Part shown: piece after piece, positions 39,509 to 61,178 of the stretch
Layout: every line of letters starts with the position of its first letter
Position numbering within the stretch: the stretch's first letter is position 1
NCBI GenBank assembly: GCA_900316935.1
Contig: ONEW01000005.1
Coordinates: 720 to 64,719, forward strand
DNA: 64,000 bases
From: an uncultured Selenomonadales bacterium
Lineage (GTDB): Bacteria > Bacillota > Negativicutes > Acidaminococcales > Acidaminococcaceae
Direction: 5' to 3'
Translations under genes and position numbers: made by a program
Notes under the pieces: model-generated
Seen by the model: the letters and a program-made list of their open reading frames with translations, nothing else
The model's database searches: none
Told to the model about the DNA's origin: nothing

Positions 39509-40533
39509 AAAGACAAGGTACCTTTCCCTTCACGGCCATTATCGGCCAGGACACGATGAAAAAAGCCCTGGTGCTGAACGTCGTCAATCCGAAACTCGGC
39601 GGCGTCCTGATCCAGGGGGAAAAAGGAACCGCAAAATCGACGGCCGTCCGCGCCCTGGCAGATCTGCTGCCGCCGCGCAGATGCATCAAGGGCTGCCGGT
39701 TCCATTGCGACCCCGATGACAGAGCAAACTGGTGTGACGAATGCCAGGAAAAATACGCGACGGAAGAACCGCCGGTGGAACTGCTGCCCATGAAAGTGGT
39801 CGAACTGCCCGTCAGCGCCACGGAAGACCGCGTCGTCGGAACCCTGGACATCGAAACCGCCATCCGCGAAGGCAAACGTTCCTTCGAAACGGGTATTCTG
39901 GCTGACGCCAACCGCAACATCCTTTACGTAGATGAAATCAATCTGCTCGACGACCATGTGGTCGATGTCCTGCTCGACTCCGCCGCCATGGGCATCAACA
40001 CGGTGGAACGCGAAGGCATTTCCTACTCCCATCCGGCGCGCTTCTCCCTGGTCGGCACCATGAACCCGGAAGAAGGGGACATCCGCCCGCAGCTTCTCGA
40101 CCGCTTTGCCTTGTCCGTCAAGGTCGCCGGCGAACAGGATCCGGAACGGCGCGCGGAAATCATCAAACGCCGCCTCGCCTATGAAGCAGATCCGGAACCG
40201 TTCCTGGAAAGCTGGAAGGACGAACAGGCCAAGGAAGTCCGCCGCATCGAACGGGCCCGGAAACTGCTCTCCGAAGTGACCTGCTCCAACGATATGCTCC
40301 TGCTGGCCGCGAAAATTTCCATCACCCTGGGCGTCGACGGACACCGTGCCGACATCACCCTGATCAAGACGGCCGAAACCATCGCCGCCGTTGCCGGCCA
40401 CACGGAAGTCACGAAAGAGGATATCCGGGAAGCCTCCAGACTGGCATTGCCGCACCGTATGAGACGCCGTCCGTTCGAAGAACAGAATCTGGACTGGACG
40501 GAAGTCGACGAGGTCATTGACGATGAAGCGTAA
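39505..40533 (+). CDS. ChlI/BchI-like AAA+ chelatase subunit, copy 1
   Basis: A 342-residue AAA+ ATPase of the magnesium/cobalt-chelatase small-subunit family. Walker A is [14 protein letters not shown] (about 38-51), Walker B is [13 protein letters not shown], sensor region [18 protein letters not shown], and the C-terminal lid ends [15 protein letters not shown] Cys cluster [11 protein letters not shown]...WCDEC between Walker A and B is characteristic of ChlI proteins that work with CobN-like partners and may bind metal. It forms a ring with the ChlD-like protein and powers the CobN-like subunit. It overlaps both neighbours, indicating translational coupling. About 340-residue paralog in module 2. 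Confidence 0.93.
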
Positions 40534-44289: not shown

Positions 44290-46242
44290 TCACCGGTTCC
44301 GCACGACCCGGATGATTTTCTCCTGGGTCAGGCCTTTCAACGTATAATAGGCCGCCCCCATGGCGGCGGCCAGTTCCCGGGCGATTCCCAGTTTGACGAA
44401 ATCCTGTTCCGTGTCAATGACGACGGACGGGATACGGGCCTGTCTGATTTTTGCGCCCAGTGCCAGGGCTTCTGCCACTGGATCACCGTCTTTTCCGGCG
44501 CGGTTCGTCCGGCCGTCCGTCACCAGGATCAGGACAGCATCGAGATGCTTGTCCTTGCGCCGCTCCAGCTCCAGCGTCATCAGGGCTTTTTCCAGTGCCT
44601 GCGGCAAGGGCGTCCTGCCGCCTGTCGGCAGTGTTTCCAGGCACTTTTTCGCCAATTCGATACTGCGCGTGACGGGCAGCAGCAGGTCCGCCTTGTCCCG
44701 GCGAAAGGCAATCATTCCGACCCGGTCCCGTTTCTGGTACGCCTCTTCCAGTAACTGGAAAATGGCGCCCTTGACGGCCGTCATCCGTTCCCTGGCGCCC
44801 ATGGAGCCGCTGGCATCGACATCGAAAAGAAAGGTTGTCCCGATGCGCTTTTCCCGTACTTTCTGCCGGATATCCTCCACATAAATGGATAGCGCCTTCC
44901 CGTCTTTTTTCCTGAAACGCTGATACGGGGCGGCCGCGCGCAATGTCGCATCGAAGGCGATATCATCGGTTTTACCGGAAACAAGGGCCGCGCGCACGTA
45001 CCGTCCCTGTTTCAGATCCGTACGGGTTAGGCTGCGTTTTCCGCTGCCCCGGCGGATCAGATGGTCCGCCCAGGCTTCCAGCTCCAGAGCAGGCATGGGA
45101 AAATTCCGGCCAATCCCGCTGATTCGTTCTTCCGGTGCCATTCCGTCACCTTCCGACGGGGGCTGTGGTGTTTCAGAGGTACCATTCGTTTGCTCCTCGC
45201 CATTTTCCGCACCTTCCGGAGATTCCGCCATCCCCGGCGTGTCCGCGCCGTCATGCGGCTGCTCCTCGCCCGGGGAATCCGGACTTTCGTCCTCCTCTTG
45301 CGGCTGCTCCTGTTCCTTCCCGTTTTCCTCTTCTGCCGAAGTCTCATTTTCCGGAGGCGGTTCTTCCGACTCCCGGGGAACTTTAGGAGGCAGCTGGCGC
45401 ATCCGGTGCGGCAAAACGAAGACAGCAGCCTCCTCCACATCCTTCGGCAGCACATAGTTCCGCCCGGCCAGTGCGGCCAGGGAACGTGCCGCCTCAAGCA
45501 GGTACAGATCCGCCCGGTGGCCCGCACACAACGCCCGCCCGCACATTTCAGCCGACAGGGCCATCATCGTTTCGCTGACCTGTACCGACGGCAGCAGCGC
45601 CCGCGCCTGCTGCACCTGCCGCCGCAATGTCTCCGTGGCCCCGGCATACGCGGCGCGGAACGCCGCCTTGTCCTGCTCATACGCCAGGCAGCGGTGCATG
45701 ATTTCAACCCGCCCGCTCCGTTCCGTTACGTTCTGCACATCCACATACAGGCCGAAACGGTCCAATATATGCTGCGGCAGGGTCCCTTCTTCCGGATTCA
45801 TCGTTGCCAGCAGGACGAAGTCCGTTGCATGGGTATATGAAAATCCGTCGCGTTCCACATGGTTACAGCCGTTCAGGCGCGCATCGAGCACGCTTGTCAG
45901 GAGTTCCTGGCGCAGCAGGTTCGCCTCGTCGATATAGAGTATATTCCCGTCACAGCGGGCCAGCAGGCCCGGTTCAAAACGGCGTTTGCCCTCCTGCACG
46001 GCATATTCCAGATCGATTGTCCCGAAGAGCATGTCTTCCGTCACATTCAAAGGCACATTGACCAGCCGGCAGGGAGCGGCCAGTTCGGCTGCACCACGGA
46101 CGAGGGTCGTCTTCGCCGTTCCCTTGCATCCGCTGACGAGCAGTCCGCCGGCTTCCGGGTTCACCAGGGCAATCAAAACGGCCCGTTTCGCCTCATCCTG
46201 TCCGACTATGGCCGCAAAAGGATACCCATTCCAATGTTCCAT
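44290..46242 (-). CDS. ChlD/BchD-like AAA+ and VWA chelatase subunit, copy 2
   Basis: A 650-residue paralog of the module 1 ChlD-like protein: AAA+ domain with Walker A GCKGTAKTTLVRGA and Walker B GNILYIDEANLL, an acidic Glu/Pro-rich linker (for example PPENETSAEEENGKEQEQPQ), KRSLTRTDLKQGRYVRAALV, and the VWA MIDAS motif [14 protein letters not shown]. It starts 10 bases after the ChlI-like gene. It would couple ATP hydrolysis to the module 2 CobN-like subunit. The linker and N-terminal domain are clearly diverged from copy 1, so the two copies probably do not exchange freely. Confidence 0.92.
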   Translation of the reverse strand: MEHWNGYPFAAIVGQDEAKRAVLIALVNPEAGGLLVSGCKGTAKTTLVRGAAELAAPCRLVNVPLNVTEDMLFGTIDLEYAVQEGKRRFEPGLLARCDGNILYIDEANLLRQELLTSVLDARLNGCNHVERDGFSYTHATDFVLLATMNPEEGTLPQHILDRFGLYVDVQNVTERSGRVEIMHRCLAYEQDKAAFRAAYAGATETLRRQVQQARALLPSVQVSETMMALSAEMCGRALCAGHRADLYLLEAARSLAALAGRNYVLPKDVEEAAVFVLPHRMRQLPPKVPRESEEPPPENETSAEEENGKEQEQPQEEDESPDSPGEEQPHDGADTPGMAESPEGAENGEEQTNGTSETPQPPSEGDGMAPEERISGIGRNFPMPALELEAWADHLIRRGSGKRSLTRTDLKQGRYVRAALVSGKTDDIAFDATLRAAAPYQRFRKKDGKALSIYVEDIRQKVREKRIGTTFLFDVDASGSMGARERMTAVKGAIFQLLEEAYQKRDRVGMIAFRRDKADLLLPVTRSIELAKKCLETLPTGGRTPLPQALEKALMTLELERRKDKHLDAVLILVTDGRTNRAGKDGDPVAEALALGAKIRQARIPSVVIDTEQDFVKLGIARELAAAMGAAYYTLKGLTQEKIIRVVRNR

Positions 46243-46252
46243 GTCCCACTCC

Positions 46253-47275
46253 TTACGCCAGGATTTCCGTCACTTTGTCCCAATCCAGCGTTCCTTCTTC
46301 AAACGGACGGCGGCGCATGCGGTGCGGCAGGGCCAGTTTCGCCGCCTTCAGCAGGTCTTCCTGGTCCACCCGCGTATGCCCGCGGAACGCCGCATTCGTC
46401 AAGGCGGTCTTGATGACCGTAATGTCCGCTCTGTGCCCGTCCACGCCCAACGCCAGGGACAAGTCGGCCACCTTGCCCAGGTACTCGTCGTCAATCGCCA
46501 CCCGGGGTAAAAGCTCTTTGGCCGCCAGGATACGGTCCGCCAGTTCCTTCTGCGTCCCGCTGTACCGTGCCAGGAAGGCATCGGGATCGCTTTCGTAGGC
46601 AAGCCGCCGCTTGATGACCTCGATGCGGTTGTCCCGCTCATGTTCGCCCGTCACAGTCACGGACAGGCCGAAACGGTCCAGCAGCTGCGGCCGGATATCG
46701 CCCTCTTCGGGATTCATGGTGCCCACCAGCACGAAGCGCGCCGGATGGGAATAGGAAACACCTTCGCGTTCCACCGTGTTGACGCCCATGGCGGCAGCGT
46801 CGAGTAAGATGTCGACTACATGGTCATCCAGCAAATTGACTTCATCCACATAAAGGATGTTCCGGTTCGCATCGGCAAGAATGCCGGCTTCGAACTTTTT
46901 CTGCCCGTGCCGGATGGCGTACTCTATGTCCAGCGTACCCGCAACGCGGTCCTCCGTCGCATTGACAGGCAGTTCCACCACGCGCATCTTCCGTTGTTCC
47001 ACCGGCAGGGAACCTTCTTTTTCCTGTTTCGCGCGGCAATCGTCGCACCAGTCATTCGGATTTTCAGGATTGCAGTGGAACCGGCAGCCATGTACGCATT
47101 CCATGGCCGGCAGCAGTTCCGCCAGGGCACGGACCGCCGTCGACTTGGCCGTTCCTTTCTCCCCTTTGATCAGCACCCCGCCAAGAAGCGGGTTGATGAC
47201 GTTCAAAATCAACGACAACTTCATTTCTTCCTGCCCTACGATGGCAGTAAAAGGATACTGGGCAACCCGTTCCAC
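46253..47275 (-). CDS. ChlI/BchI-like AAA+ chelatase subunit, copy 2
   Basis: A 340-residue AAA+ ATPase paralogous to the module 1 ChlI-like protein and closely similar along its length: [20 protein letters not shown], Walker [15 protein letters not shown], Cys cluster [11 protein letters not shown]...WCDDC, Walker [34 protein letters not shown], and C-terminal [15 protein letters not shown]. It starts at GTG, 7 bases after AGGAGG. It lies between cbiZ and the ChlD-like gene in the MerR-controlled operon. Confidence 0.93.
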
Positions 47276-47308: not shown

Positions 47309-48412
47309 TCATTCCGCCGTTCCTTCAGACAAATCAAGCCGTTTCCTGACAATACCCGTAAAGAGGCGGCACCAGGCGTCCGTCATCGCTTCCGGGCAAA
47401 CATCGGCCAGAGCCGGAGCCGTCACGCCGTACCGCTCCGCCAGGGACAGAAGGATACGTTCCGCCGGTCCCAGTACATCTTCCCTTGTCAAAAGTCCCCA
47501 CAGAAACTGGTCAAGCAGATGGATGTAAAGGGAAGTTTCGGTGAGCAGGGCGGACTCCCGGGCCAGCGGTTCCGCGACTTCCAGGAAATCCGGTTTCAGG
47601 ACCGCAGCAGGCGGCTCCTCCTGAAACAGCTGCCAGACCCGCATGGGAGTGACGCCGAACCGTTGCAGGCGGCGGAAAGCGTCGTGTTGTCTAGCCGGGT
47701 TCAGGTCCGACTGCTTTGAAAGGGCCCGTTTGACCGCCTTCAGGACGACGCGTCCGATGAGTTCCCCCATCTTGGAATGTTTGCCGGCTCCTTCCAGGTA
47801 TAACGGGGAATCGGCATTTGCCACAATCATGGTCTGGTCCGTACCGGAACCCGTAGCAAGTCCCGTCGAATAATGACTGCCCGCCATAAGTTCCTGGATG
47901 GCCGCCGTTTTCGCCTCCGTGCAGGTTACCAGGGCGCGGGCCAGTGTGCCCGGCGGCATATCGGTATCCAGCACGAGGATGATGTTGATGGTCCCGGGCC
48001 GGCCCGGTTTTTCCCGGGGTTCGTAATAATCCGCCGGATCGCCTGCCCGTCCGCCGTTGGTTTCGATGCCGCCGGTGACAATGGCCGTAACGGTCAATTC
48101 CTTGAACGACAGGGTTTCGATGGCTGCATTCTCCATATCGGCGGCAGTCCCCATGCCCGTCACCTTGTCGGGATCCAGGCCGATCCGGCGGGAAATGAGG
48201 CGCATGTGCTCCGTATAGGTGTCGGCCAGCATTTCGCACGGCATACCGGGAGCGGTTTTGGCGTCATGGTTGTAGACCGCCGTATAGTCTTCATGATACC
48301 CGCCGTTATAGACCGACGTGCTCAACACTTTCCGACGTCCCTTGAAAAAGACGACGATGCTCTTGTCGTACCGGTAGACAGGATCTCCCGTCGACAGTTC
48401 GTACAGTTTCAC
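47309..48412 (-). CDS. cbiZ: Adenosylcobinamide amidohydrolase CbiZ with C-terminal extension
   Basis: A 367-residue protein. The first roughly 240 residues are CbiZ, the corrinoid-salvage amidohydrolase that cuts the aminopropanol side chain to yield cobyric acid: YNGGYHEDYTAVYNHDA, VTGMGTAADMENAAIETLSF, VTAIVTGGIETNGGRAGDPA, GTINIILVLDTDMPPGTLAR, and HYSTGLATGSGTDQTMIVAN are the family hallmarks. About 125 further C-terminal residues, mainly helical, are not part of the minimal CbiZ and have no recognised fold. Start: GTG at 7 bases from AGGAGG; the ATG two codons upstream is only 1 base from that site. Its presence in a chelatase operon points to a corrinoid-like substrate. Confidence 0.9.
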   Translation of the reverse strand: MKLYELSTGDPVYRYDKSIVVFFKGRRKVLSTSVYNGGYHEDYTAVYNHDAKTAPGMPCEMLADTYTEHMRLISRRIGLDPDKVTGMGTAADMENAAIETLSFKELTVTAIVTGGIETNGGRAGDPADYYEPREKPGRPGTINIILVLDTDMPPGTLARALVTCTEAKTAAIQELMAGSHYSTGLATGSGTDQTMIVANADSPLYLEGAGKHSKMGELIGRVVLKAVKRALSKQSDLNPARQHDAFRRLQRFGVTPMRVWQLFQEEPPAAVLKPDFLEVAEPLARESALLTETSLYIHLLDQFLWGLLTREDVLGPAERILLSLAERYGVTAPALADVCPEAMTDAWCRLFTGIVRKRLDLSEGTAE

Positions 48413-48425
48413 TTGCATTCCTCCT

Positions 48426-51400
48426 TCAGTCACGGTAATCCGCCCTTTCTTCCAAATCACCCTCCAGGTCGAGGCACAAATCCCGCAATTCCTTCAATGT
48501 TTCGTCTTTTGCATTCCACATGCCGCGCTGCTGCGCTTCGAGCAGCTCTTCGGCAATCCGGTGCAGCGCCCAGGGATTGACATCCTTCATCCATTCTTGG
48601 ACCTTGCGGTCGAAGGCATATTTCTCTGCATATTTTTCATACATCCAGTCTTCCATGACCTCGCTCGTCGCATCCCACTGGAAGCTGTGAGCCACGTAGT
48701 TCGCCAGGTCGGCGGCTCCCTTATATCCGTGTTTCATCATTCCGGCAATGAATTTGGGATTCACGGCCTCGCTCCGGAAGAGCCGCTTAGTCTGTTCCTG
48801 GACGCTGTACATCGCAACCCTGCTGCGGTCCGTGCTGTCACCGCAATACGATCTGGGTGCTTTGCCGCTGATACTGCGCACGGCAGCAATCATACCGCCG
48901 TGATACGCATTGTAGTCGTCGCTGGACAACATGTTTGTCTCGTGGTTGTCTTCGTTCTTGATGGTCAGATCCAGACTGCCCAGACGTTTCCGGAACTGCT
49001 GCGGCAGGAACTGTCCTTTTGCCTTGCCGCCGTACGCGTAAGCTCCCCAGCGCACATAAACATCGGCCAGGTCATCCACGGTTTCCCAGTTTTTCGCTTC
49101 CAGCAGGGCGGCCACGCCGGCACCGTACGTTCCCTGTTCGTCGCCAAAGATACGGAACGCCGCCTGCCGCCAGGCTTCCTCTTTCGGCAAACCTTCCTTC
49201 TCCAGCTCTGCGCTGTCCTCCAGAATATGTTTGCGGACGTAGTTCTGCTCTACATCTTCGTCCAGGCTGCCGGCCAGAAGGACCGCCTTGTCCAGCCATT
49301 CCGACGGAGCCGGCATGGTGTCCCGGAACAAACCGCTGATGCGGGCCGTCACGTCAATGCGCGGACGTTTGAGTTCCGCCAAAGGAATCGGCTCCAGGCC
49401 GCAGACCCGCATACTGCCGCTCTGCCAGACCGGTTTGATGCCCAGCAGATACAGGAATTCGGCAATGCACTGTCCGTGGCTGCGCATATTGGCCCCGGAC
49501 CAGAGAATGATGCCCACATTTTCCGGATAGCGCCCTTCTTCCGCAATAAAGCGCCGGATTGCCTGATCCCCCAGTTCCTTGCCCAGTTTCCACGCCGCCG
49601 GCGTCGGCAGGGCGCGGGGATCGATGCCGTAGAAATTCCTGCCCGTGGGCAGCAGATCCGCCCCGCCGCTGGACGGTGCGCCGGACGGACCGGGCTCAAT
49701 GTAGCGTCCTTCGAACGCGTCCAGCATATTCGTCAATTCATCCGTCGTACGCATCAGGTTCGGGTATACGCTCCGGCACACGTAAGTGCACACGGCACGC
49801 AGCTTTTCCCGGAACGCCTCGCCGCCGTGCTGCACCCACGCCTCTTCCAGCACCTTGCTGCAGCCTTCCTCCGAGAAATGCGATGCAGCCAGCGTTTCCA
49901 GAATCTGCCGTCCCTGATCCGCAATCCGGTCTATCAGGGCCCCGTACGTAATCTGCAAAGGCTTGTACACATGGCTGCTGTTTTCAGCCAGCTGGTAATA
50001 GTCGAATCCGTAATACGAGGCCAGTGCCTGGTTCAGGCTCGGCACGCTGCCGTTATCCAGCCGGGTAAGGAGCAGCAGGGTTTCCCGCAGCTCTTCCCCT
50101 TCCGGCGGCTGTCCGAGAATGTGGAGACCCGTATGGACCTGCATGTTCTTCAGGTCCGTAATATAGTTGTGTAGCGCCGCCACGTAATCCCCGAACGGTT
50201 TGCTTTCGTCGCGGGGGACTTCGTCCGTCAGATTCGCCTGCGCCGCCTTTTCCTTCACCATGGCTTCGAGGGCCGGCAGATTTTCCGGCTGGGTCCGTTG
50301 GAAATGGACATACTCGTCCATCACCTTTTCCAATTCCTCCAGCTCATCGTACACGCCCGCCTGGGTCTGCGGTGCCGGCAGATGCTCAATGAGGCACGCG
50401 CTGCCGCGCCGTTTCGCCTGGATTCCTTCCCCCGTGATGGAAATCAGGTACGGGTAAATGTCGGGCAGGTCCCCCAGCGCCAGATCGGGATAACAGGAAG
50501 GCCCCAGACCCGCATTCTTGCCCGGCAGCCATTCCAGAGAGCCGTGCGTCCCGATATGGGCGACGGCATCCGCCTGCCACACATCGCGCACCCAGTGATA
50601 GAACGCCAGATAATGATGCGTCGGTGCCACAAAGAGGTCGTGGTAGATCTTTTCCGGATCTTCCCCGAATCCGCGGGGCGGCTGTACCGTAATGAACACA
50701 TTGCCGTCCATAGTACCCGGCACCAGCAGGTTTCCGTCGTACTCCATCACCGTTCCCGGTGCCTGTCCCCAGTCCTTTTCCATCTGTTTCCGCACGGGCG
50801 TTTCGAAGGACGCGAAGAAGTCCCGGTAATCCCGTCCGGAAACTTTACGGGCCTCGGCAATCTGCTGTTCCGTCAGCAGCGAGCGGTCATTCGTCGCATG
50901 CGCCGTGAGCAGGCCGATGAACTCCTTGCCGTCCTGCGGGATGAAGTCCACCTTGTAGCCCCGTTCCTGCAGAGCGGCGAGCACCCGGCGCACACTTTCG
51001 ATGGTGTCGAGCGCCACGGCGCTTCCGATGTTCGAGTTCTTCGGCGGATAGTTGTGGAAGACGATGGCGATCTTCTTTTCCCCGTTTTTCTTGCGCCGCA
51101 GCCGGGCCCATTTTCCCGCCTTCCGGATCATGCGCGTCACCCGTTCGTCTATGGGGAGATACCGGATATCCCCGTTCGGCAGCTGACGGCGGTATCCCAC
51201 AGGCACGCCGTGCACCACGCCGTCAAATTCCGGCAGGGCGGCACTGATGGACACTTCCATGGCATTCATGCCTTCGAAACTGTCGCGCCACTCCTCATAG
51301 GGCGTCATAATGGTGTAAGCCGCCAGAACGGGCACGCCTTGTTCCCGTAAAAACGGAACCGTCAAGGAACCGCTGCTTGTCAGGGAAAACTTCAGCGTGT

Positions 51401-52148
51401 TCAGCAGCACATCGATGACGGGCAGCCCGTCCCGCTGAAAATACCGGCGGAACACTTCCTTCAGGCTGGGCATGCCGGCCTCTTCCGAAGGCATGCCGTT
51501 CGAAAAGACGCAGATGACATTCAGTCCCTGTTTTTCCGCTTCGCGGATCAAGGCCGTCTGATAGGCCAGGTCTTTCCACACCCACTCGTCACGGTAAAAC
51601 AGAATGCCGACAGTCGGGCGTCCGGCCACACAATGCGCTGCTTCGTAGGCCTCCAGTTCCGTAAACGGTTCGGCGTCATCCGGATGGAAAATGCCACACC
51701 AAAGCAGCTGCCGTGCCGGTATAACGTGTGTCGTATCCCCGTTCAGCAAGCCATCGGCGTACTGCCACAAATGACGGTAGTTTTCCTGTCCCCCGTACAG
51801 GAAATAGTGCCGGATGTCCTGTACCGCTTTTCCGCGAAGGAATTGAAAAAGTTCCGGCTGATCCGCCCCGGCCGCGTCAATGTAATAGGGAACCTTGTAT
51901 TGTTTCAACCAGGCCAGCAGCTGATTCAGAAAGGGCGTGTCGAGTCCCGTCCCCATCCATTTCACCAGAACCAGCCCGCACCCGCGCAACTCCAGCGGCC
52001 ACGTCGCATCCCAAGCCGTATTGTCCGTAATCCAGCGGCAGACAGCCGGACTATGCATATTTCCCGGTTCGCTCTGCAATGCAGCAAGAGTATCCTGCAT
52101 CATCGCCATCCGGCGGACGACATTCGTCATAAACAAAATCTTGCTCAC
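48426..52148 (-). CDS. CobN/BchH-family chelatase large subunit, copy 2
   Basis: A 1240-residue CobN/BchH-family protein, paralogous to the module 1 copy throughout: KIAIVFHNYPPKNSNIGSAV, VAHIGTHGSLEWLPGKNAG with the conserved GTHG..E..PGK, FYGIDPRALPTPAAWKLG, MLSSDDYNAYHGGMIAAVRS and FQWDATSEVMEDWMYEKYAE. Start: GTG behind GGAG, aligned with the start of copy 1 (SKILFMTNVVRR against KIIYMTNHDRR); a longer frame would overlap the upstream gene. Expected to bind a tetrapyrrole and insert or remove its metal, powered by the ChlI/ChlD pair encoded in the same operon. The MerR operator and CbiZ in the same operon suggest a different substrate from copy 1. Confidence 0.9.
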   Translation of the reverse strand: MSKILFMTNVVRRMAMMQDTLAALQSEPGNMHSPAVCRWITDNTAWDATWPLELRGCGLVLVKWMGTGLDTPFLNQLLAWLKQYKVPYYIDAAGADQPELFQFLRGKAVQDIRHYFLYGGQENYRHLWQYADGLLNGDTTHVIPARQLLWCGIFHPDDAEPFTELEAYEAAHCVAGRPTVGILFYRDEWVWKDLAYQTALIREAEKQGLNVICVFSNGMPSEEAGMPSLKEVFRRYFQRDGLPVIDVLLNTLKFSLTSSGSLTVPFLREQGVPVLAAYTIMTPYEEWRDSFEGMNAMEVSISAALPEFDGVVHGVPVGYRRQLPNGDIRYLPIDERVTRMIRKAGKWARLRRKKNGEKKIAIVFHNYPPKNSNIGSAVALDTIESVRRVLAALQERGYKVDFIPQDGKEFIGLLTAHATNDRSLLTEQQIAEARKVSGRDYRDFFASFETPVRKQMEKDWGQAPGTVMEYDGNLLVPGTMDGNVFITVQPPRGFGEDPEKIYHDLFVAPTHHYLAFYHWVRDVWQADAVAHIGTHGSLEWLPGKNAGLGPSCYPDLALGDLPDIYPYLISITGEGIQAKRRGSACLIEHLPAPQTQAGVYDELEELEKVMDEYVHFQRTQPENLPALEAMVKEKAAQANLTDEVPRDESKPFGDYVAALHNYITDLKNMQVHTGLHILGQPPEGEELRETLLLLTRLDNGSVPSLNQALASYYGFDYYQLAENSSHVYKPLQITYGALIDRIADQGRQILETLAASHFSEEGCSKVLEEAWVQHGGEAFREKLRAVCTYVCRSVYPNLMRTTDELTNMLDAFEGRYIEPGPSGAPSSGGADLLPTGRNFYGIDPRALPTPAAWKLGKELGDQAIRRFIAEEGRYPENVGIILWSGANMRSHGQCIAEFLYLLGIKPVWQSGSMRVCGLEPIPLAELKRPRIDVTARISGLFRDTMPAPSEWLDKAVLLAGSLDEDVEQNYVRKHILEDSAELEKEGLPKEEAWRQAAFRIFGDEQGTYGAGVAALLEAKNWETVDDLADVYVRWGAYAYGGKAKGQFLPQQFRKRLGSLDLTIKNEDNHETNMLSSDDYNAYHGGMIAAVRSISGKAPRSYCGDSTDRSRVAMYSVQEQTKRLFRSEAVNPKFIAGMMKHGYKGAADLANYVAHSFQWDATSEVMEDWMYEKYAEKYAFDRKVQEWMKDVNPWALHRIAEELLEAQQRGMWNAKDETLKELRDLCLDLEGDLEERADYRD

Positions 52149-52165
52149 GGTCTTCACTCCATTCG

Positions 52166-53470
52166 CTATATTGAACCGCAGGTTCCGTCCTGCCGCAGTA
52201 TGCCCTGTATGTAGGCATTCCAAATCCTTTGCGCCATATGCCGGGCTCCCTGCAGGCCGCAGAACGGCACCGATACCAGGAGTGCCTCATCCTTGACGGG
52301 GAAGGCAATGTTGCAGACAGCGATACGATTCCGCCGCCGGTCCGTCAGGGCGCTCTCATTACTACTGCCCAGCAGCAGGGCATTGTCCAGATACCGGAAC
52401 ATCTGTGCCGCCCGTGCATCGTCCCGGCCGGCAATCAGTTCGGTATCGGCCTGGCTGCTGTGAAGGCCGTACAAAGTGACGTCATTTTGACACTGAACGA
52501 CCAGTTTCCCTGTATCCAGCCATTCCATACGGACGGTGTCGGCCAGACAGACTGCTGTCGTCCCGGGTGCGGAAACAACGACTGACTCGAACCACGGAGA
52601 ACCCCAGTTCAGGCTCAGTTCATTGGACCAGTCCGTCAGCCAGGCCAGGGTTTCGCGGGCTTCCCGCAGTGGTTCGTCCATGGTGCACGGTAATGCGTTG
52701 CGGATTTTCTGTAGCCAGGCCAGCGTCCCTTCGATGCCGTACGGCGCACCGGCGCACAGATACGGTGTCCCGAAGCGGTCTTGCAGAGCCCTTGCCAGGG
52801 GCATCCCCAGTTCGGCATGAATCACCACGTTCAATTCTGCCCGGGACAGTTCCTTCAGCGATGCAGCACCGCTTCCGCAGCCCGGTACGGCATTGACCTG
52901 ATAGCCGCAGTCGGCAAGCAGGCGGAGGATTTCCTTTGCGTCAGCCTGCCCGTTATAGTAAAAGGGTGTCAGGCCAAGCACATTGATGCAGCCGCGGCGG
53001 ACCGGCAGTTTTTCGAGATGGCTTTGTTCCAGCAGGGCCAGCGATGCTTTAGCGTACCCTTCGGCAAAACCGCCGCCCAGGCCGCCTGAATCCATGGTTA
53101 CGACGGGAAAGGGCAGTGCCGCTTTCTGGATGATGCCCTGTAAATCGTCGCCAATCAGGCTCATGGAACAGCTGTTTTCCACCAGCAGCAGATCCGGATG
53201 GAAGCCATCCTGCTGCATCTGCCTCAGCGTTTCCAGCAGGAACTTTTCGGCACCGAACACAACGGCATTGTTATCCGGCTGGGACACGGACATCCGCTGC
53301 GGCATGGCCATGTCGGCATGTTCCAGATAGCGGAGGGCATAATAATAACACCACACGGGCCCGTTCACGAGCACCCCCGCACCGGGAATCCCCCCGAAGA
53401 AGGCGGCAGCCCCGGTCAGGCCGCAGGTATCATTGCGGCTGCATATATCATTCCAGACGAAATCAGACAT
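52166..53470 (-). CDS. Nitrogenase component 1-like protein, subunit B
   Basis: A 434-residue protein of the NifD/NifK/BchN/BchB superfamily. It retains three Cys at the positions that bind the [4Fe-4S] or P-cluster in this family: C16 (DTCGLTGA), C41 (NGPVWCYYYAL) and C101 (ENSCSMSLIGDD), the last in the typical C...IGDD context. It is clearly not a nitrogenase subunit: no FeMo-cofactor pocket is recognisable and it is short. The start overlaps the stop of the preceding nitrogenase-like gene by 8 bases, so the two are translated together and probably form a heterodimer. The close precedent is ring reduction of tetrapyrroles (DPOR, COR, CfbCD). Confidence 0.85.
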   Translation of the reverse strand: MSDFVWNDICSRNDTCGLTGAAAFFGGIPGAGVLVNGPVWCYYYALRYLEHADMAMPQRMSVSQPDNNAVVFGAEKFLLETLRQMQQDGFHPDLLLVENSCSMSLIGDDLQGIIQKAALPFPVVTMDSGGLGGGFAEGYAKASLALLEQSHLEKLPVRRGCINVLGLTPFYYNGQADAKEILRLLADCGYQVNAVPGCGSGAASLKELSRAELNVVIHAELGMPLARALQDRFGTPYLCAGAPYGIEGTLAWLQKIRNALPCTMDEPLREARETLAWLTDWSNELSLNWGSPWFESVVVSAPGTTAVCLADTVRMEWLDTGKLVVQCQNDVTLYGLHSSQADTELIAGRDDARAAQMFRYLDNALLLGSSNESALTDRRRNRIAVCNIAFPVKDEALLVSVPFCGLQGARHMAQRIWNAYIQGILRQDGTCGSI

Positions 53471-54755
53471 AGCGCATTCCCCCGTGTTTCTGACGGCTGC
53501 ACAAAGCGCGGTAAACGGCTTCCATCATGGCGATGGCGGCCGTAGTCCCCGCCTGCGGCAGCATGGGCAGGAAAATCTGATGCAGGTCCTCCCCCTGCAG
53601 TTCATGGGTCGTCAAGACCACTTCGGCGCTGCGGACCAGCTCCGCGCCGGATTTTTGATCCACGATAGGCAGACCGGTGCAAGTGCGGACGGCTTTCTCC
53701 ATTTTCTCCCGTTCCGCCGGCGTGTATCCGTCCAGCAGGATGACGGCCGGTATCCGCAGCTGGAGCTGCCGGACGATTTCCCAGATAGAATCGGGCCGGA
53801 AATAACGGAGCCAGCGCCCGATACACAAAGCCGCCCGTTTTCCCCGTGTCACGGGCAGATAACGGATGACGGCCTCGTCCAGGCGGTCCTGCTCTTCCGC
53901 TATCAGGGCTTCCGCGGCCTTTTCCCGGTGGAAGAGCCGCCCGACGGCCGCAATCCAGCGCATGGTCTGCGCCGTACCAATGGGGTACAGTCCCGGCACG
54001 GTTCCCATCTGATACGTTTCGTGCAGAAAGGCAGCCATTTCCTGTAGTCCGTCCATCGGCTTGCGGTTTCCGCCCAGCACCACAACGGCCTCGGCGCGGG
54101 ACAGGCGCGGCCATTCATGAAAGGGCATGAATCCTGGGAACTGGCCGATGATCCGGATGCCCATCTTTTCCAACAGCCGTTCCACCTCTTTGGCATAGCT
54201 GCCCCACGGACCTCCGCTGTCCCCCAGCAGCAGCACCGTATCCCGCTCTTTGCGGCAGGGTCGGAAGAAGCGTCTCATCAGCTTGGTTGCCGTCTCGATA
54301 TACCCATCGTAATATTCGCCATCCAGAAAGCCGAACGTGCTCACCGTTACGACAGGGATGCCATACTGTTTTTCCGTTTCCGCCGCTGCGCTTTCTACAT
54401 CGTCCCCAATCACACCGGACACGCAGGAATTGGCAATGACGATGCACTCGGGATGATAGTTCTTCACAGCATAGGAAAGGCACTGCTGCAGCCGTTCCAC
54501 CCCGCCGAAGATGGATTCCCGTTCCCCCAGCTGGTCCGAAATCAGCGGTACCGGTTTGTGCGATCCGTCCCGCCCTTCGGCCAGATTCGAATAGCAGCTG
54601 TTCACGTCCATCGTCCGGGCGATATGGGCACAGGCGCGGGGACTGTGGAACACTGCGACGACTCCGTCGCAGTAGGTGACGGCCCGCCATACGCCCGTCA
54701 TGCTGCAGCTGCAGCTCCGGGCTTTCCCGATGAAACGTTTCATTTTAAGGGACAT
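53463..54755 (-). CDS. Nitrogenase component 1-like protein, subunit A
   Basis: A 430-residue partner of the next gene in the same superfamily. Cluster-ligand candidates are C15/C17 (SCSCSMTG), C42 (HSPRACAHIA, matching the HGPxGC site) and C111 (ANSCVSGVIGDDVE). LISDQLGERESIFGGVERL matches the NifD/NifE 'FGG' region. First gene of the MerR-controlled operon; the 5' leader is about 70 bases. The ribosome site is weak. A NifH/BchL-type ATP-dependent reductase, needed by all known relatives, is not encoded in this window, so it must come from elsewhere. Confidence 0.85.
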   Translation of the reverse strand: MSLKMKRFIGKARSCSCSMTGVWRAVTYCDGVVAVFHSPRACAHIARTMDVNSCYSNLAEGRDGSHKPVPLISDQLGERESIFGGVERLQQCLSYAVKNYHPECIVIANSCVSGVIGDDVESAAAETEKQYGIPVVTVSTFGFLDGEYYDGYIETATKLMRRFFRPCRKERDTVLLLGDSGGPWGSYAKEVERLLEKMGIRIIGQFPGFMPFHEWPRLSRAEAVVVLGGNRKPMDGLQEMAAFLHETYQMGTVPGLYPIGTAQTMRWIAAVGRLFHREKAAEALIAEEQDRLDEAVIRYLPVTRGKRAALCIGRWLRYFRPDSIWEIVRQLQLRIPAVILLDGYTPAEREKMEKAVRTCTGLPIVDQKSGAELVRSAEVVLTTHELQGEDLHQIFLPMLPQAGTTAAIAMMEAVYRALCSRQKHGGMRYV

Positions 54756-54830
54756 TGGGGAATCACCACTCTTTCAACTTCTTCTTTTTATGATATAATT
54801 ACTAAATAGCACAAATTCACATCAATATTA

Positions 54831-54861
54831 ATGATAAACCATATAACAGGTATATCGTCAA
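54831..54861 (-). promoter_or_regulatory. MerR-type promoter/operator 1 (nitrogenase-like/chelatase operon)
   Basis: Read on the - strand: -35 TTGACG (54861-54856), spacer of exactly 19 bp, -10 TATCAT (54836-54831). The spacer contains ATATACC...TATATGGT, shared with two other promoters in the window. The over-long 19-bp spacer with an operator inside it is the classic architecture activated by MerR proteins. It lies between the nitrogenase-like gene and the divergent merR-type gene. Confidence 0.8.
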
Positions 54862-54879: not shown

Positions 54880-55788
54880 ATGAGGGAAACAACAGATAAC
54901 TTTTTCACCATCGGAGAGCTGGCCGATATGTTCGGTATCTCAAAACAGACCCTGCAGTACTACGACCGCATCGGCCTGCTTTCTCCGGAATTTATCAGTG
55001 AAAACGGATACCGCCATTATTCCATACACCAGTATCTGGAACTGGATGTCATTACGCGGCTGCGGAAGCTGCACATGTCCATTCCCCATATCCGGGCTTA
55101 TCTGGAACAACGGAACGAGTCCTCGCTGGAACAGATACTGCTGGACAAAGAACAGGAATGCCGGGCTGTTATCGCCGAAAATGAACAGCTTCTGCGCAAG
55201 CTGCAGTTCATTCAGGAGTCCCTGAAGGAGTGCCGGCATGAAATATGCGGAACCATCACGCTCCGCCATTATCCGGAGCATTTCCTTTCCGTCACGGATA
55301 TTCCCGAAACGGAAGATGGCAAAGGACGCATCATGTTTTACGCCGAACACGCCCTGGGTACGACAAGTGCCAATCCGCCCCTGGGCCGTACGACCGGCTG
55401 GATCGTCCGCAGCGGGGAATTCCTGCATGCGCGGCAGGTACCCGTGACAAGGGCCTATTTTTCCTTTTTGCCTGAACCTAAAGACAAGGAAGCACCGCCT
55501 TCCTCTGTCACGGCAGCAAAAAAGCGCTCCCGCAGACAGGGCGCCGCCCTGCCGGAATCCCGGCGGGCGATTTTCCCCGCAGGCCTGTATCTGAGCCTGA
55601 ACTTTCAAGGCGTCTTTTTTACACGGTATGCCGACCTGGCCGCATCCATCAGGGATTTTCTCGTCCAACATCACTTGCAGGAGGCCGGTGACCTGTATGT
55701 ACTGCCCCTCAAAAATCACTGGCTTACCCGGAATACAGCGGCATACGTCACCAAACTCCTGCTGCCCGTCCAACACATTGCGCCCTGA
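54880..55788 (+). CDS. MerR-family regulator with BmrR/GyrI-like effector domain
   Basis: A 302-residue MerR regulator. The N-terminal winged helix (FTIGELADMFGISKQTLQYY, DRIGLLSPEFISENGYRHYS) is followed by a coiled-coil dimer helix (about residues 85-118, LLDKEQECRAVIAENEQLLR) and a roughly 180-residue C-terminal domain resembling the GyrI-like effector domains of BmrR-type activators. This implies a small, possibly aromatic or tetrapyrrole ligand rather than a metal ion held by Cys. A basic, Pro-rich insert lies near residues 200-230 (EPKDKEAPPSSVTAAKKRSR). It is divergent from promoter 1 and is the obvious regulator of the three matching promoters in the window. Confidence 0.9.
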   Translation: MRETTDNFFTIGELADMFGISKQTLQYYDRIGLLSPEFISENGYRHYSIHQYLELDVITRLRKLHMSIPHIRAYLEQRNESSLEQILLDKEQECRAVIAENEQLLRKLQFIQESLKECRHEICGTITLRHYPEHFLSVTDIPETEDGKGRIMFYAEHALGTTSANPPLGRTTGWIVRSGEFLHARQVPVTRAYFSFLPEPKDKEAPPSSVTAAKKRSRRQGAALPESRRAIFPAGLYLSLNFQGVFFTRYADLAASIRDFLVQHHLQEAGDLYVLPLKNHWLTRNTAAYVTKLLLPVQHIAP

Positions 55789-55888: not shown

Positions 55889-56218
55889 TCACTCCTTATG
55901 TCCGCAATGTCCGGATGTTTCCCCATTCATGATCTTTTTGAAAATGGTATGGGCCTCGTCAGCAGACTTGCCGTTCTGCAGCGCTTTCTGCATGTGGAGC
56001 ATGGCCGTGCGGTACTTGGCATGGGCTTCGTCCTTCGGAATCGAATCGATATCGGACGGATCGAACTCCATGACTTTTTGGAAGACCGCATGGATTTCTT
56101 CCGTGGATTTACCCGCTTTTTTTGCCGCTTCCACATGTTTCATGGCGCTTTCGTAACGCAGTTTGCCGTGAGGATCGGTCGGTACCTGGAATTCCGGATG
56201 TTTACTGGTACAGGTCAT
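55889..56218 (-). CDS. MerR-regulated tandem-repeat helical protein, unknown function
   Basis: A 109-residue protein with two similar helical repeats of about 35 residues: KLRYESAMKHVEAAKKAGKS, TEEIHAVFQKVMEF, and AKYRTAMLHMQKALQNGKSA, DEAHTIFKKIMNG. Met and His recur at matching positions (AMKH/AMLHM, IHAVF/AHTIF). A Cys/His pair occurs at each end (TCTSKH and SGHCGHKE), suggesting metal or cofactor binding. No signal peptide. The ATG follows GGAGG. Its promoter is one of three matching MerR-type sites, so it belongs to the chelatase/importer regulon and might be a carrier or sequestering protein for the imported compound. Family not recognised. Confidence 0.75.
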   Translation of the reverse strand: MTCTSKHPEFQVPTDPHGKLRYESAMKHVEAAKKAGKSTEEIHAVFQKVMEFDPSDIDSIPKDEAHAKYRTAMLHMQKALQNGKSADEAHTIFKKIMNGETSGHCGHKE

Positions 56219-56248
56219 CGCTAACACCTCCTTACGATTGCTGTGTTC

Positions 56249-57390: not shown

Positions 57391-58245
57391 TTACAGCGGA
57401 GAATTTTCGTATTCTTTCCAACCGACGGCCTGAAGCAGCAGCTGCTTCCGCCGTTCCCTATCCTTTCCCGGCCGGGTGGAAATTTCCAGATTCCCGTTGA
57501 CAGGATTCCGCACAATGGCTACATCGGCCTCGTAGGCGCGGCTCAGCAACGGCTCCGTCAAAACCTGTTCCGGCACGCCGTCCGCCAGCATGCGGTTTTC
57601 ACCCAGAAGCCAGATGCGGCTGCAATACCGGGCAGCCATGTTCAATTCGTGGACGACCATGAGGACCGACTTGCCCAGCTGGGCCAGCTCCCGGGCGAAC
57701 CGGAAGATTTCTTCATTATATACCATATCGAGGCCTGTCGTCGGCTCGTCGAGAAACAATACCGGCGTCCGCTGGGCCAATACCTTGGCCAGCAGAATGC
57801 GTTGTTTCTGTCCGCCAGACACCTGGTTCAGCGGCCGGCCGGCCAGTTCTTCCGTCCCGGTATAGCGCATGCAGGCAAGGGCAATGTCCCTGTCCCGGTC
57901 CGATTCGCCCTCCCACCAGCGCAGATAGGGATAGCGCCCGGCCAGGACCACCTCCAGGCCTGTATAGGAAAACGGGACTTCCATATGCTGATCCAGGTAG
58001 GCCACAATCCGGGCCATTTCCTGTTCCGTATAGCCGGACAGCTCCCGCCCGTCATACAGGATATCCCCTCCGAGGCGCGGCAAAAACCCGCGGATGGTTT
58101 TCAAGAGGGTACTTTTGCCGGCCCCGTTCCGGCCGACAATGCCGATGAACTCGCCAGCGTGCACCGCCGCGTCCATTCCCTGCAGGACCCGGGTTCTGCC
58201 ATACCCGGCCGCGAGATTACGCAGTGTAATTGTTCTTTCTTCCAC
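57391..58245 (-). CDS. ABC importer ATPase (BtuD/FecE type)
   Basis: A 284-residue ATPase of the cobalamin/siderophore/heme uptake group: Walker A GIVGRNGAGKSTLLKTI, Q-loop VAYLDQHMEVPFSYT, the GRYPYLRWW signature common to this subfamily, LNQVSGGQKQRILLAKVLAQ, Walker B TPVLFLDEPTTGLD and VVHELNMAARYC. It starts at GTG behind GGGGAG, overlapping the nitrilase gene by 29 bases. Last gene of the MerR-controlled importer operon. It energises the permease encoded at 60141. Confidence 0.94.
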   Translation of the reverse strand: MEERTITLRNLAAGYGRTRVLQGMDAAVHAGEFIGIVGRNGAGKSTLLKTIRGFLPRLGGDILYDGRELSGYTEQEMARIVAYLDQHMEVPFSYTGLEVVLAGRYPYLRWWEGESDRDRDIALACMRYTGTEELAGRPLNQVSGGQKQRILLAKVLAQRTPVLFLDEPTTGLDMVYNEEIFRFARELAQLGKSVLMVVHELNMAARYCSRIWLLGENRMLADGVPEQVLTEPLLSRAYEADVAIVRNPVNGNLEISTRPGKDRERRKQLLLQAVGWKEYENSPL

Positions 58246-59056
58246 GTTGACAATCTCCCCTCTTTGACACTTCTTCCGTTTCGGGAAACGGGATTACCTC
58301 AAACTGCCGGGATACCACCATCCCATTGCCCTCGTTCCAGTCAAATAACAGGACCGCCGGCTTTCCCTGGTACAGCAGACGGGCGCTTCCGCCGCTGATG
58401 ACGGCGCTTTGTGCCTGCGTCAGGTCCATGCGCGGGCTGACCCCCGTCTGGTTGCAGACGAAAACCGGCAGGCCTGTCGCTGCCGAGCAACGTTCCCAGG
58501 CAGGCAGCGGATTGCCGCACAGACGGGTCGCCGTCCAGGCTGCCAAGTCCGTCAGCACCCGCGCACCCTGTTGCTGCAGACGGCGGGCATATTCCACGTA
58601 CCAGGCGTCGGCGCAGACGAGAAGGCCCGCAGGGACCGTCCCGCAGGTCACGGGGACCAGGGTGTCACCGCTTCCCCGTGCAGCCCAGGCTTCGGCGCCG
58701 AAATGATGGGTCGTCATCTTCCGGTGTCGTCCGCAGAGCCGGCCGTCGGGGCCGAAGACCAGGCAGGAATTGTAATTTTGCTGCCGCTGCGGATCCCGTT
58801 CCCCGCACCCCAAAAACAGGTACATCCGGCCCGCGCGGACAATATCCAGCAGCCGTCGGAGCTCCGGTGCAGGCTGCGGCACCATAACCTGATTCTGTCC
58901 CAGATAGAGGAAATGATACCCCTGTACAGCCATTTCCGGCGTCAAGACCCATTGCGCTCCCTGCTGCGCTGCCATCCGTATGGCCTGTTCCAGCTGGCAC
59001 AGATTGACCGTCTGGGGTCCGCAGATCACATTCAGGTGACACAAGGCGACTCTCAT
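58217..59056 (-). CDS. Nitrilase-superfamily amidohydrolase in importer operon
   Basis: A 279-residue carbon-nitrogen hydrolase with an intact catalytic triad: Glu41 (LTPEMAVQGYHF), Lys113 (HRKMTTHHFGAE) and Cys148 (AGLLVCADAWY). Cytoplasmic. It hydrolyses an amide or nitrile, or transfers the acyl group, but the branch of the family is not identifiable. It overlaps both neighbours (ATGA with the binding-protein gene, 29 bases with the ATPase gene), an unusual place for such an enzyme and a strong sign that it acts on the imported compound. Corrinoids carry several amide side chains, so side-chain trimming is a fair hypothesis. Confidence 0.88.
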   Translation of the reverse strand: MRVALCHLNVICGPQTVNLCQLEQAIRMAAQQGAQWVLTPEMAVQGYHFLYLGQNQVMVPQPAPELRRLLDIVRAGRMYLFLGCGERDPQRQQNYNSCLVFGPDGRLCGRHRKMTTHHFGAEAWAARGSGDTLVPVTCGTVPAGLLVCADAWYVEYARRLQQQGARVLTDLAAWTATRLCGNPLPAWERCSAATGLPVFVCNQTGVSPRMDLTQAQSAVISGGSARLLYQGKPAVLLFDWNEGNGMVVSRQFEVIPFPETEEVSKRGDCQRGRKNNYTA

Positions 59057-60108
59057 GCTGTTCCTCCTTTGCCGAAGCGGTCCGGATAAAGGGCCCGGGC
59101 CAGATCTTCCACGGCATCCACAATGTACTGGGACAAAGACAGGACGTGGGCCGCAGGAATCTTTACGACCGCCTTGTCCCGGACGGCCTTCGTTTCCTTG
59201 TAAGCCGGGTTGGCCAGCAGTTCCCGTGCCATCATGTCCGGATCGTGGTTCCCGTCATAGTTCCAGGCGGGAACCATGAAGACATCGGGATTGAGGTGAA
59301 CCAGAACCTCCTGCGGCAGAACACCCGGTTTGTCATATACCAGACCTTCCGTCACATCAATGCCGCCGGCTTTCCGGCAGATGTCCTGAAACGAGGACTT
59401 CGGCATATAATAAAAACCGCCGGAACCGTAATACGCGATGCGTTTCCGCTTTGACTCCGGCAGCGGCCCCACCTGCCGCTGTACCGTCTGCAGACGCTGC
59501 TCCATGGATTGGATAAGGCGTTCTGCCTTCTCCCGCTCCTGTACGACCGTGCCGAGCGCCCGGACGGTGTCTTCCACTTCGCGGATATTCACGGCCGTAT
59601 GGTAAATATACAACGGAATGCCCATCTCCCGGAAGGTTTTGATCATTTCCGGCTTCCCGTAATCCGCCGCCACAATCAGGTCCGGATTTAGTGCGAGCAG
59701 CGCTTCCGGTGTAACAGTACGGACGCGCCCTGCAACAGGTTTTGCCAGCTCCGTCACGTTCGAAATGCCCGGATCGTCAGCCAGATAAGTGACAGCGGCA
59801 ACCCGGGAAGCAGGGACAAGGGCCAGCAGGATCTCATCAGTACTGATGGACGTGGAAACAATCCGCTGCGGCGGGCCGGGCAGGTGCAGCACCGTCCCTG
59901 TCGCATCGGTTACCGTATAAGCCGCGTGTTCCGCCGCCGGACGGTTTCCGGTACTGTTGCCGCAGCCTGCAGCAAGAATCAGCCAGCAAAGACAGAGCAC
60001 GGCCGGCAGCAGGAGACTGCGCTTCGCCGAACCCGGAATCAGGCGGGCCCTTTGCAGAGGAAGAAGTGCACGGCGGACGCTATTCAGGAAAAACAAGACT
60101 CTGTTCAT
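59053..60108 (-). CDS. ABC importer substrate-binding lipoprotein, second copy
   Basis: A 351-residue BtuF/FhuD-like periplasmic binding protein. Lipoprotein signal with LAAGC (Cys49) after an unusually long, basic n-region; a later non-ATG start is possible. Family marks: GPPQRIVSTSISTDEILLAL, ALLALNPDLIVAADYG and EVLVHLNPDVFMVPAWNYDG. It shares the architecture and the PDVF...NYD segment with the first-gene lipoprotein, so the operon encodes two related but diverged receptors. Between the permease and nitrilase genes. Confidence 0.9.
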   Translation of the reverse strand: MNRVLFFLNSVRRALLPLQRARLIPGSAKRSLLLPAVLCLCWLILAAGCGNSTGNRPAAEHAAYTVTDATGTVLHLPGPPQRIVSTSISTDEILLALVPASRVAAVTYLADDPGISNVTELAKPVAGRVRTVTPEALLALNPDLIVAADYGKPEMIKTFREMGIPLYIYHTAVNIREVEDTVRALGTVVQEREKAERLIQSMEQRLQTVQRQVGPLPESKRKRIAYYGSGGFYYMPKSSFQDICRKAGGIDVTEGLVYDKPGVLPQEVLVHLNPDVFMVPAWNYDGNHDPDMMARELLANPAYKETKAVRDKAVVKIPAAHVLSLSQYIVDAVEDLARALYPDRFGKGGTA

Positions 60109-60140
60109 TTCACATCATCCTTCACGAACCGTTTCTCCGG

Positions 60141-61178
60141 TCACAAGGAATCCTGCCGCCGCATCCGCCGCAGCAGGAACAGGAAATAGGGTGTGCCGAT
60201 TAAAGCCGTCATGACACCGACGCGGAGTTCAGCCGGCGGCATCACGACGCGGCCCAGCACATCGCACAACACCAGGAAGGAGGCGCCACCCAGGGCGCTG
60301 GCCGGCAGCAGGATCCGGTGGTCCGGTCCGACGAGAAGGCGCATCATATGGGGCATTACCAGGCCCACGAAGCCGATATTGCCGCTGACACAGACGGAAT
60401 TAGCCGTCGTCAGGGACGCCAGCAGAAGCAGGCCCATCCGCAGCGGAAGGACCCGCATTCCCACAGCCCGTGCTTCCTGTTCTCCCAAAGCGAGGATATT
60501 CAACTGCCGCGCCAGAAGAATCATGACCAGCGACCCGGCCAGGACCGGCCCGGCCGCCATATACACGTGTTCCCAGCGGCGGTAATCCAGGCCGCCGACG
60601 ATCCAAAACAGGTATTCCTGTACTTTCTGCTCATTCATAAACGTCAGCAGCCCCGATGTCACGGCACCAAGAAACATGCCGACGGCCACGCCGGCCAGAA
60701 GCAGGGTCATGACAGGAACCTTGCCGCGCCGCAGCGCCAGAAAGATGGTCAGGCCCACAGCCAGAAGGCTTCCGCCGAAGGCAAAGGCCGGCATCACGAA
60801 AATACCGGCCGTCGACAAACCGAGGGCGATGCACAAGACTGCTCCGGCCGAAGCACCGGCTGATACGCCGATTATTCCCGGATCCGCCAAAGGGTTCGCA
60901 AAGACCCCCTGCATCACGGCGCCGGAAATTCCCAGCGCCGCCCCGACAAGCAGTCCGACCAGGGTACGGGGCATACGGATTTGCCAAATCACGGCCTCCT
61001 GAACCGCTGTTACCGAAGAAGGCAGCGTCACAGGAAGCCCAATGCGACGGGCGGTAATGGCCAGTACATCCGGGACGGGGACGGCAATCTGGCCGATGGT
61101 CAGGGACAATGATGCCACCACAAGCAACACGGCTAGAAAAAAGAGGACTGCCGCCATCCGCCTGGCTTTCCAATTCAT
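60141..61178 (-). CDS. ABC importer permease (BtuC/FecCD type)
   Basis: A 345-residue permease with about ten TM segments of the BtuC/FecCD family: IWQIRMPRTLVGLLVGAALG, ISGAVMQGVFANPLADPGII (the GxxxQxxxxNPLAxPxxxG motif), GNIGFVGLVMPHMMRLLVGP (coupling region) and PAELRVGVMTALIGTPYFLF. Works as a homodimer with the ATPase encoded in the same operon; transports a metal chelate, corrinoid or heme. ATGA overlap with the upstream lipoprotein gene. Confidence 0.95.
   Translation of the reverse strand: MNWKARRMAAVLFFLAVLLVVASLSLTIGQIAVPVPDVLAITARRIGLPVTLPSSVTAVQEAVIWQIRMPRTLVGLLVGAALGISGAVMQGVFANPLADPGIIGVSAGASAGAVLCIALGLSTAGIFVMPAFAFGGSLLAVGLTIFLALRRGKVPVMTLLLAGVAVGMFLGAVTSGLLTFMNEQKVQEYLFWIVGGLDYRRWEHVYMAAGPVLAGSLVMILLARQLNILALGEQEARAVGMRVLPLRMGLLLLASLTTANSVCVSGNIGFVGLVMPHMMRLLVGPDHRILLPASALGGASFLVLCDVLGRVVMPPAELRVGVMTALIGTPYFLFLLRRMRRQDSL

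Follow-up and report, generated by a model that had tools for sequence, protein, structure and literature searches.

The window, as we call the whole stretch of 64,000 nucleotides analysed here, is part of an 80-kb contig (C27) from an assembly of 1.95 Mb that comprises 46 contigs and is 92.5% complete; its genus-mates, Succiniclasticum ruminis and further genomes of rumen type among them, place this gut- or rumen-type anaerobe in the Acidaminococcaceae. On the reverse strand lie two adjoining genes, alpha (53463..54755), which encodes a NifD/MarD-like nitrogenase component-1 subunit of 430 amino acids, and beta (52166..53470), which encodes a NifK/BchB-like component-1 subunit of 434 amino acids. 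Their open reading frames share an 8-bp overlap, and both assignments draw on Pfam, cysteine columns, a phylogenetic tree and Foldseek. The same strand carries the genes for CobN_B, the large subunit of a CobN-type chelatase (48426..52223), recognized by homologues in the operons of relatives and by profile and structure matches; a CbiZ-family adenosylcobinamide amidohydrolase (47309..48460; PF01955, E=1e-59); and, from profile matches, a ChlI-like AAA+ chelatase subunit (46253..47275) and a ChlD-like AAA+/VWA chelatase subunit (44290..46242). The start codon of CobN_B is uncertain, as relatives align from about residue 26.

Directly before alpha, on the reverse strand, is a MerR-type promoter (54831..54861) in which TTGACG and TATCAT are separated by a 19-bp spacer with a dyad, as read from an alignment of eight species. 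A MerR-family regulator, identified by Pfam and by synteny with relatives, is encoded divergently on the forward strand (54880..55788). Only 5 nt before the start codon of alpha stand 24 nt, GAAGAAGTTGAAAGAGTGGTGATT (54761..54784, reverse strand), which are probably a remnant of the 3′ end of nifH. A protein of 112 amino acids without a Pfam match is encoded further on (55889..56227, reverse strand); it is 56-75% identical to proteins in many relatives, where it stands beside their MerR gene or operon, and may belong to the system. Beyond two ribosomal protein genes, on the other side of the operon from the chelatase genes, the reverse strand holds the genes of a BtuD/BtuF/BtuC-type ABC importer (57391-58245, 59053-60108, 60141-61178 and 61175-62161, within the region 57391..62161) and, amid them, a nitrilase-family CN_hydrolase (58217-59056), all recognized by profile matches.

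A second chelatase cluster, comprising CobN_A, a radical SAM protein, ChlI_A and ChlD_A (34687..42448, forward strand), is complete, runs in the opposite orientation and lies 2 kb from the first chelatase cluster. A cluster of this type follows NifH-alpha-beta in Veillonellaceae DNF00626 (L104). CobN_A and CobN_B are the only two CobN genes of the window genome, which also contains two genes for HemB, porphobilinogen synthase (G000:C24:35552-36502 and G000:C31:133-1083).

The alpha-beta pair within the nitrogenase superfamily

Both subunits match the Oxidored_nitro family (PF00148) over their full length, with E values near 1e-51 and scores of 175 and 179 bits against a Pfam cut-off of 28.6; together with the gene coordinates, these matches bear out the nitrogenase-like heterodimer proposed in the preliminary description. 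The AlphaFold models are confident (pLDDT 87.6 and 91.5 for the two subunits), and the top Foldseek ranks go to NifD and MarD for alpha and to BchB/ChlB of the dark-operative protochlorophyllide reductase (DPOR) for beta. Among the NCBIfam models, every named family stays far below its cut-off: the best for alpha is nifE, at 100 of the 505 bits needed, and the best for beta is BchB, at 92 of 490. Among the plasmid matches listed, the only relatives were classical nif/vnf-type genes at about 22-27% identity.

The three putative cluster-ligand cysteines that had been pointed out in each protein (C17, C42 and C111 in alpha; C16, C41 and C101 in beta) proved to be invariant in 20 homologues and likewise across alignments of 40 alphas and 35 betas, and further cysteines are conserved at C15 and C92 of alpha and at C10 of beta. 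In alignment, these columns coincide with the P-cluster ligand columns of MarD and with the matching columns of NifD, NifK, NifE and NifN; a profile alignment pairs Cys66, Cys91 and Cys158 of the MarD P-cluster with C17, C42 and C111 of alpha. Three plus three cysteines are common to NifDK, VnfDK, Mar and the NifEN of Nitratidesulfovibrio, but not to BchNB or BchYZ, and such a set permits a P-cluster, as judged from the aligned columns, without proving one. The lack of a FeMo-cofactor site, also noted at the outset, holds as well: the cofactor cysteine column (Cys270 of MarD) is occupied by Gly228 in the window alpha and by residues other than cysteine in its relatives too.

In a maximum-likelihood tree, the alphas form one clade and the betas another (both 100/100), and both stand apart from the BchN, BchB, BchY, BchZ, Nif and Vnf subunits. 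Membership of a known nitrogenase or tetrapyrrole-reductase clade, which by the terms of the preliminary description would have refuted its reading, was therefore not found among the clades sampled. MarD is a weak sister of the alpha clade (90/76); deep placement in the tree is uncertain because several reference branches are long, MarD and MarK were entered as fragments read from HMMER alignments, and CfbD was left out. The pair thus appears to belong to a Negativicutes clade separate from BchNB/BchYZ, NifEN and the nitrogenases, with MarD as the nearest relative of alpha.

Comparison with characterized systems brings out a mixture of shared and divergent traits. The methylthio-alkane reductase MarHDK (PDB 9FMG, 9D9U; PMC12552129) contains the best solved homologue of alpha (profile E=1e-45), and it resembles the present system in its six P-cluster-type cysteines spread over two subunits and in the NifH-type partner that the pair has in its relatives. 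Unlike MarD, however, the window alpha is shorter, lacks the cofactor cysteine and sits in a corrinoid-type operon; of the two MarD ligands of the Mar [Fe8S9C] cluster, Cys270 corresponds to Gly228, and the region of His429 lies outside the alignment. Nif, Vnf and Anf differ in the same cofactor column, with a profile match that leaves their C-terminal histidine region uncovered, and also in having a NifEN maturase: this pair is the only set of PF00148 genes in the window genome, which consequently has no NifEN pair. An enzyme of the nitrogenase or methylthio-alkane-reductase type with a large Fe-S catalytic cofactor would suit the closeness of alpha to MarD, and three cysteines per subunit would fit its P-cluster. 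With glycine at the cofactor position, proteins of only about 430 amino acids, a single pair and hence no NifEN, and a corrinoid-type operon, we regard such an enzyme as scarcely credible here. NifEN itself shares a similar short architecture and supplies the top NCBIfam model of alpha, but the score is far under its cut-off and the window genome has no other component-1 genes.

The tetrapyrrole reductases offer other parallels. BchLNB, the DPOR, provides the best structural match of beta, has no FeMoco site, and likewise combines a NifH-like protein and a heterodimer with an adjoining CobN/BchH-type chelatase with I and D motors. However, BchB has aspartate at the second ligand column, where beta has cysteine (the DPOR set being three cysteines and one aspartate), the new subunits form their own fully supported clades, and no phototrophy genes were noted in the window genome. 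The chlorophyllide reductase BchXYZ is also a three-component tetrapyrrole reductase of the superfamily, but BchZ lacks two of the three cysteine columns and lies on a long-separated branch of the tree. CfbCD is a nitrogenase-like enzyme whose tetrapyrrole substrate carries a metal and is chemically close to the precursors of corrin; CfbD, though, is a single gene where two are present here, and the subunits score only 35-39 bits against the CfbD model, whose cut-off is 268.

NifH in the family and its absence from the window genome

The preliminary description held that no Fe protein is encoded near the pair. This is confirmed, for neither the window (tblastn, best match E=0.4) nor its 92.5%-complete assembly (profile searches with PF00142 and TIGR01287) contains a NifH. 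A degraded nifH elsewhere in the window was considered and rejected, there being no tblastn match below E=0.4. The suggested search of the genome for an orphan NifH or BchL returned a single match, a MinD/ParA-like protein on contig C37 that scores 59.6 bits where the nifH cut-off is 394, and a distant NifH/BchL gene in this assembly was rejected as well.

The absence of NifH is a trait of the window genome and not of the family. Component-1 genes occur in 32 of 59 Acidaminococcaceae genomes, and 30 of those 32 also encode a NifH-like protein that clearly outscores the MinD/ParA background, the exceptions being the window genome and G056. In a scan of named genomes, 44 of 50 Negativicutes loci have a NifH-like gene directly upstream of alpha, often overlapping the alpha start. 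The NifH-like proteins of these loci share 54-57% identity with a true NifH and 37-40% with BchL. The idea that the pair as a rule works without a NifH/BchL partner, or serves as a scaffold, was therefore not sustained. As for a distant gene supplying NifH, the window assembly contains no such gene, but the genus offers precedent for supply in trans, since in some of its species nifH stands alone or beside another pair. Stand-alone nifH genes without an adjoining component-1 gene were seen in two Succiniclasticum-type genomes (L036, G046:C6; L037, G054:C14). In S. ruminis (L180), nifH lies beside another alpha-beta pair. Detached pairs occur too: four loci of Succiniclasticum relatives (L103, L111, L113 and L118) have no adjacent nifH, as has a Phascolarctobacterium locus (L101), and at L094, where nifH is likewise not adjacent, a SelR-domain gene precedes alpha. 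G056, a genus member that is 96% complete, has component-1 genes at two loci (L103 on C2, and C55) and no NifH in its assembly. The alpha-beta-NifH set at L180 (10854-17095) mentioned above, which is the second of S. ruminis, is accompanied by a binding protein and a pair of CN_hydrolase (nitrilase) genes and is much diverged from the main clade in the tree.

The junction upstream of alpha suggests how the gene may have disappeared. In the closest relative, G050, whose alpha and beta are 68% and 65% identical to those of the window, the divergent MerR gene faces a nifH-alpha-beta operon across a gap of 127 bp; in the window, the gap between MerR and alpha is 124 bp. The MerR-type promoter (TTGAC, with the dyad-bearing 19-bp spacer) stands before nifH in seven of the eight aligned species and before alpha in the window. 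Moreover, GAAGAAGTTGAAAGAGTGGTGATT resembles the conserved 3′ end of nifH, which encodes EELExLV. The score of this match was equalled by 3 of 5000 shuffles and by 0.12% of window positions, and the sequences that precede 21 other genes of the window score below it; as the spacing is one nucleotide longer and the match had been noticed before it was put to the test, we call the remnant probable. Since a conserved promoter and a probable nifH remnant abut alpha, nifH was either deleted in place or lost in assembly.

Which of the two occurred must be judged from one assembly of 46 contigs and 92.5% completeness, on which the loss rests, and we infer that it is biological. In relative-rate counts with three outgroups, the window alpha and beta show no significant excess of changes over the NifH-bearing sister, and relaxed selection on the orphan pair was rejected on this basis; dN/dS is weak evidence, as dS exceeds 1. 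The lack of a rate excess means that the loss is recent, that the function persists, or that NifH is missing from the assembly only. If the gap were an artefact of assembly or completeness, the pair would belong to an ordinary NifH-alpha-beta system of the clade, with nifH at the locus or in the unassembled part. The fragmentation of the assembly, the stand-alone nifH genes of the two genus members and the unrelaxed evolution of alpha and beta all fit such an artefact, yet the gap falls inside an 80-kb contig, the junction makes a plausible deletion scar that keeps the promoter and the 3′ end, and G056 also has pairs without NifH, so that we hold an artefact, although the chief rival account of the absent nifH, to be possible but unlikely.

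An alpha-beta pair that is truly NifH-free here would instead use another electron donor, or act as a corrinoid carrier or scaffold. NifH is absent from both the window genome and G056, the window genes are open with all cluster cysteines in place, and their substitution rates match those of the sister. However, nearly all pair-bearing genomes of the family keep NifH, no candidate emerged for a reductase to take its place, and recent loss explains intact genes equally well; the chance that the pair works in this way seems to us very small.

Corrinoid regulation and a proposed function

The window alpha and beta are orthologous to the clade and share its operon with CobN, ChlI/ChlD and CbiZ genes. 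In relatives, CobN, CbiZ, ChlI/ChlD and BtuCF-type genes and a radical SAM protein are found in one operon with NifH-alpha-beta, and among the 50 Negativicutes loci, most of the larger ones contain CobN, ChlI/ChlD, CbiZ or BtuCF-type genes. Homologues of the importer permease and binding proteins of the window sit within NifH-alpha-beta operons of relatives.

Further indications come from regulation. A cobalamin riboswitch (RF00174, 50-118 bits) precedes nifH by 120-200 nt, on the same strand, in six relatives: Sporomusa ovata, Phascolarctobacterium faecium, Anaerospora hongkongensis, a Negativicutes MAG, G020 and G021. This position directly upstream of nifH would place the system in the corrinoid regulon, and the riboswitches are the strongest evidence for a corrinoid role. 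The window itself has no cobalamin riboswitch at the gathering score, and none was found upstream of nifH at the tested Selenomonas-type loci or at MerR-controlled loci; the window genome and its nearest kin have the MerR-type promoter instead. The A. hongkongensis locus (L122) has five cobalamin riboswitches within 21 kb around NifH-alpha-beta.

The window genome encodes CbiK and an anaerobic cbi cluster that includes CbiJ and is under its own riboswitch, and it lacks CbiX. With CbiK and the cbi set present, CobN-ChlID is unnecessary for de novo cobalt insertion, and a role for CobN as the cobalt-inserting enzyme otherwise missing from de novo B12 synthesis was rejected. Because this genome makes corrin de novo, the module is best read as one for corrinoid salvage or remodelling. 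Demand for corrinoids is plausible, given a methylmalonyl-CoA mutase-like protein, a B12-dependent enzyme type, read from sequence alone at 4967-6685.

On balance, we lean towards the reading that the pair is the catalytic alpha-beta part of a Negativicutes-specific, three-component NifH-alpha-beta reductase for cobalamin-regulated corrinoid salvage or remodelling, from which nifH has been removed in place. The BtuCF-type importer would bring in a corrinoid or related tetrapyrrole, CbiZ would trim its nucleotide loop, and CobN-ChlI-ChlD would handle the central metal. NifH-alpha-beta would then pass ATP-gated, low-potential electrons through a cluster that bridges alpha and beta on the six cysteines, and these electrons would reduce a tetrapyrrole, seated in the place that FeMoco has in nitrogenase, at its ring or at its cobalt, or perhaps a metal-free corrin. 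Substrate and reaction are read from the neighbouring genes, and the cluster type and chemistry are likewise what we infer. In the window genome, the first gene of the operon, nifH, would have been removed in place and its promoter left before alpha, so that the pair probably stands idle, lost its partner only recently, or depends on a NifH that the assembly lacks.

The CobN/ChlID and radical SAM genes would also fit metal acquisition from heme or chlorophyll. In gut Bacteroidota, the CobN-superfamily protein HmuS takes the iron out of heme anaerobically (PMC12583661), and in a comparable heme or chlorophyll module the CobN-like protein would de-metallate imported porphyrin as HmuS does, with NifH-alpha-beta reducing the porphyrin or donating the electrons for iron release. 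Besides this precedent, the relatives are organisms of gut, rumen and mouth, the ABC binding proteins look like siderophore, heme and B12 types in equal measure, and de novo B12 synthesis has no need of the two CobNs. CobN_B, however, shares the chelatase superfamily with HmuS but is nearer to CobN (7c6o, E=8e-219) than to HmuS (E=2e-111), and the HmuS motif LSLDHxxEFMGG reads LSSDDYNAYHGG in its place. The motors here are of the ChlI/ChlD type, and coupling to a nitrogenase-like enzyme is described for neither HmuS nor CobN in the sources consulted. An HmuS-type heme de-chelatase identity for CobN_B was rejected on the absent motif, and since the cobalamin riboswitches and CbiZ point to corrinoids, we consider a heme or chlorophyll module improbable.

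The nitrogenase-like tetrapyrrole enzymes known so far serve the synthesis of chlorophylls or F430, whereas many Negativicutes of gut, mouth and sediment carry a nitrogenase-like enzyme beside a metal chelatase, several of them under vitamin-B12 control; such operons point to a reductive step, as yet undescribed, in the handling of corrinoids. In a full-text literature search, with many subscription journals outside its scope, no nitrogenase-like system was found tied to CobN, chelatase and NifH or to a cobalamin riboswitch. Tentatively, and at somewhat less than even chances, we propose that the nitrogenase superfamily has a third branch acting on tetrapyrroles, beside those for chlorophyll (BchLNB/XYZ) and F430 (CfbCD): a cobalamin-regulated, six-cysteine NifH-alpha-beta that would reduce a corrinoid, at its ring or its cobalt, in the course of salvage. 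An ATP-driven CobN-ChlID chelatase or de-chelatase would be coupled to it, and one lineage or more would have kept the enzyme after losing the Fe protein. The preferred reading, a corrinoid reductase that has lost nifH in this one genome, would also provide a ready natural test of whether the catalytic pair retains any function without an Fe protein.

The same family hints at what some “nifH” and “nifD” genes do, among those that make nitrogen fixers hard to count correctly. Phascolarctobacterium faecium and Selenomonas have been named as carrying nifD without nifK (PMC8597730). P. faecium holds a NifH-alpha-beta operon, and the cases named there are probably this family seen from outside.
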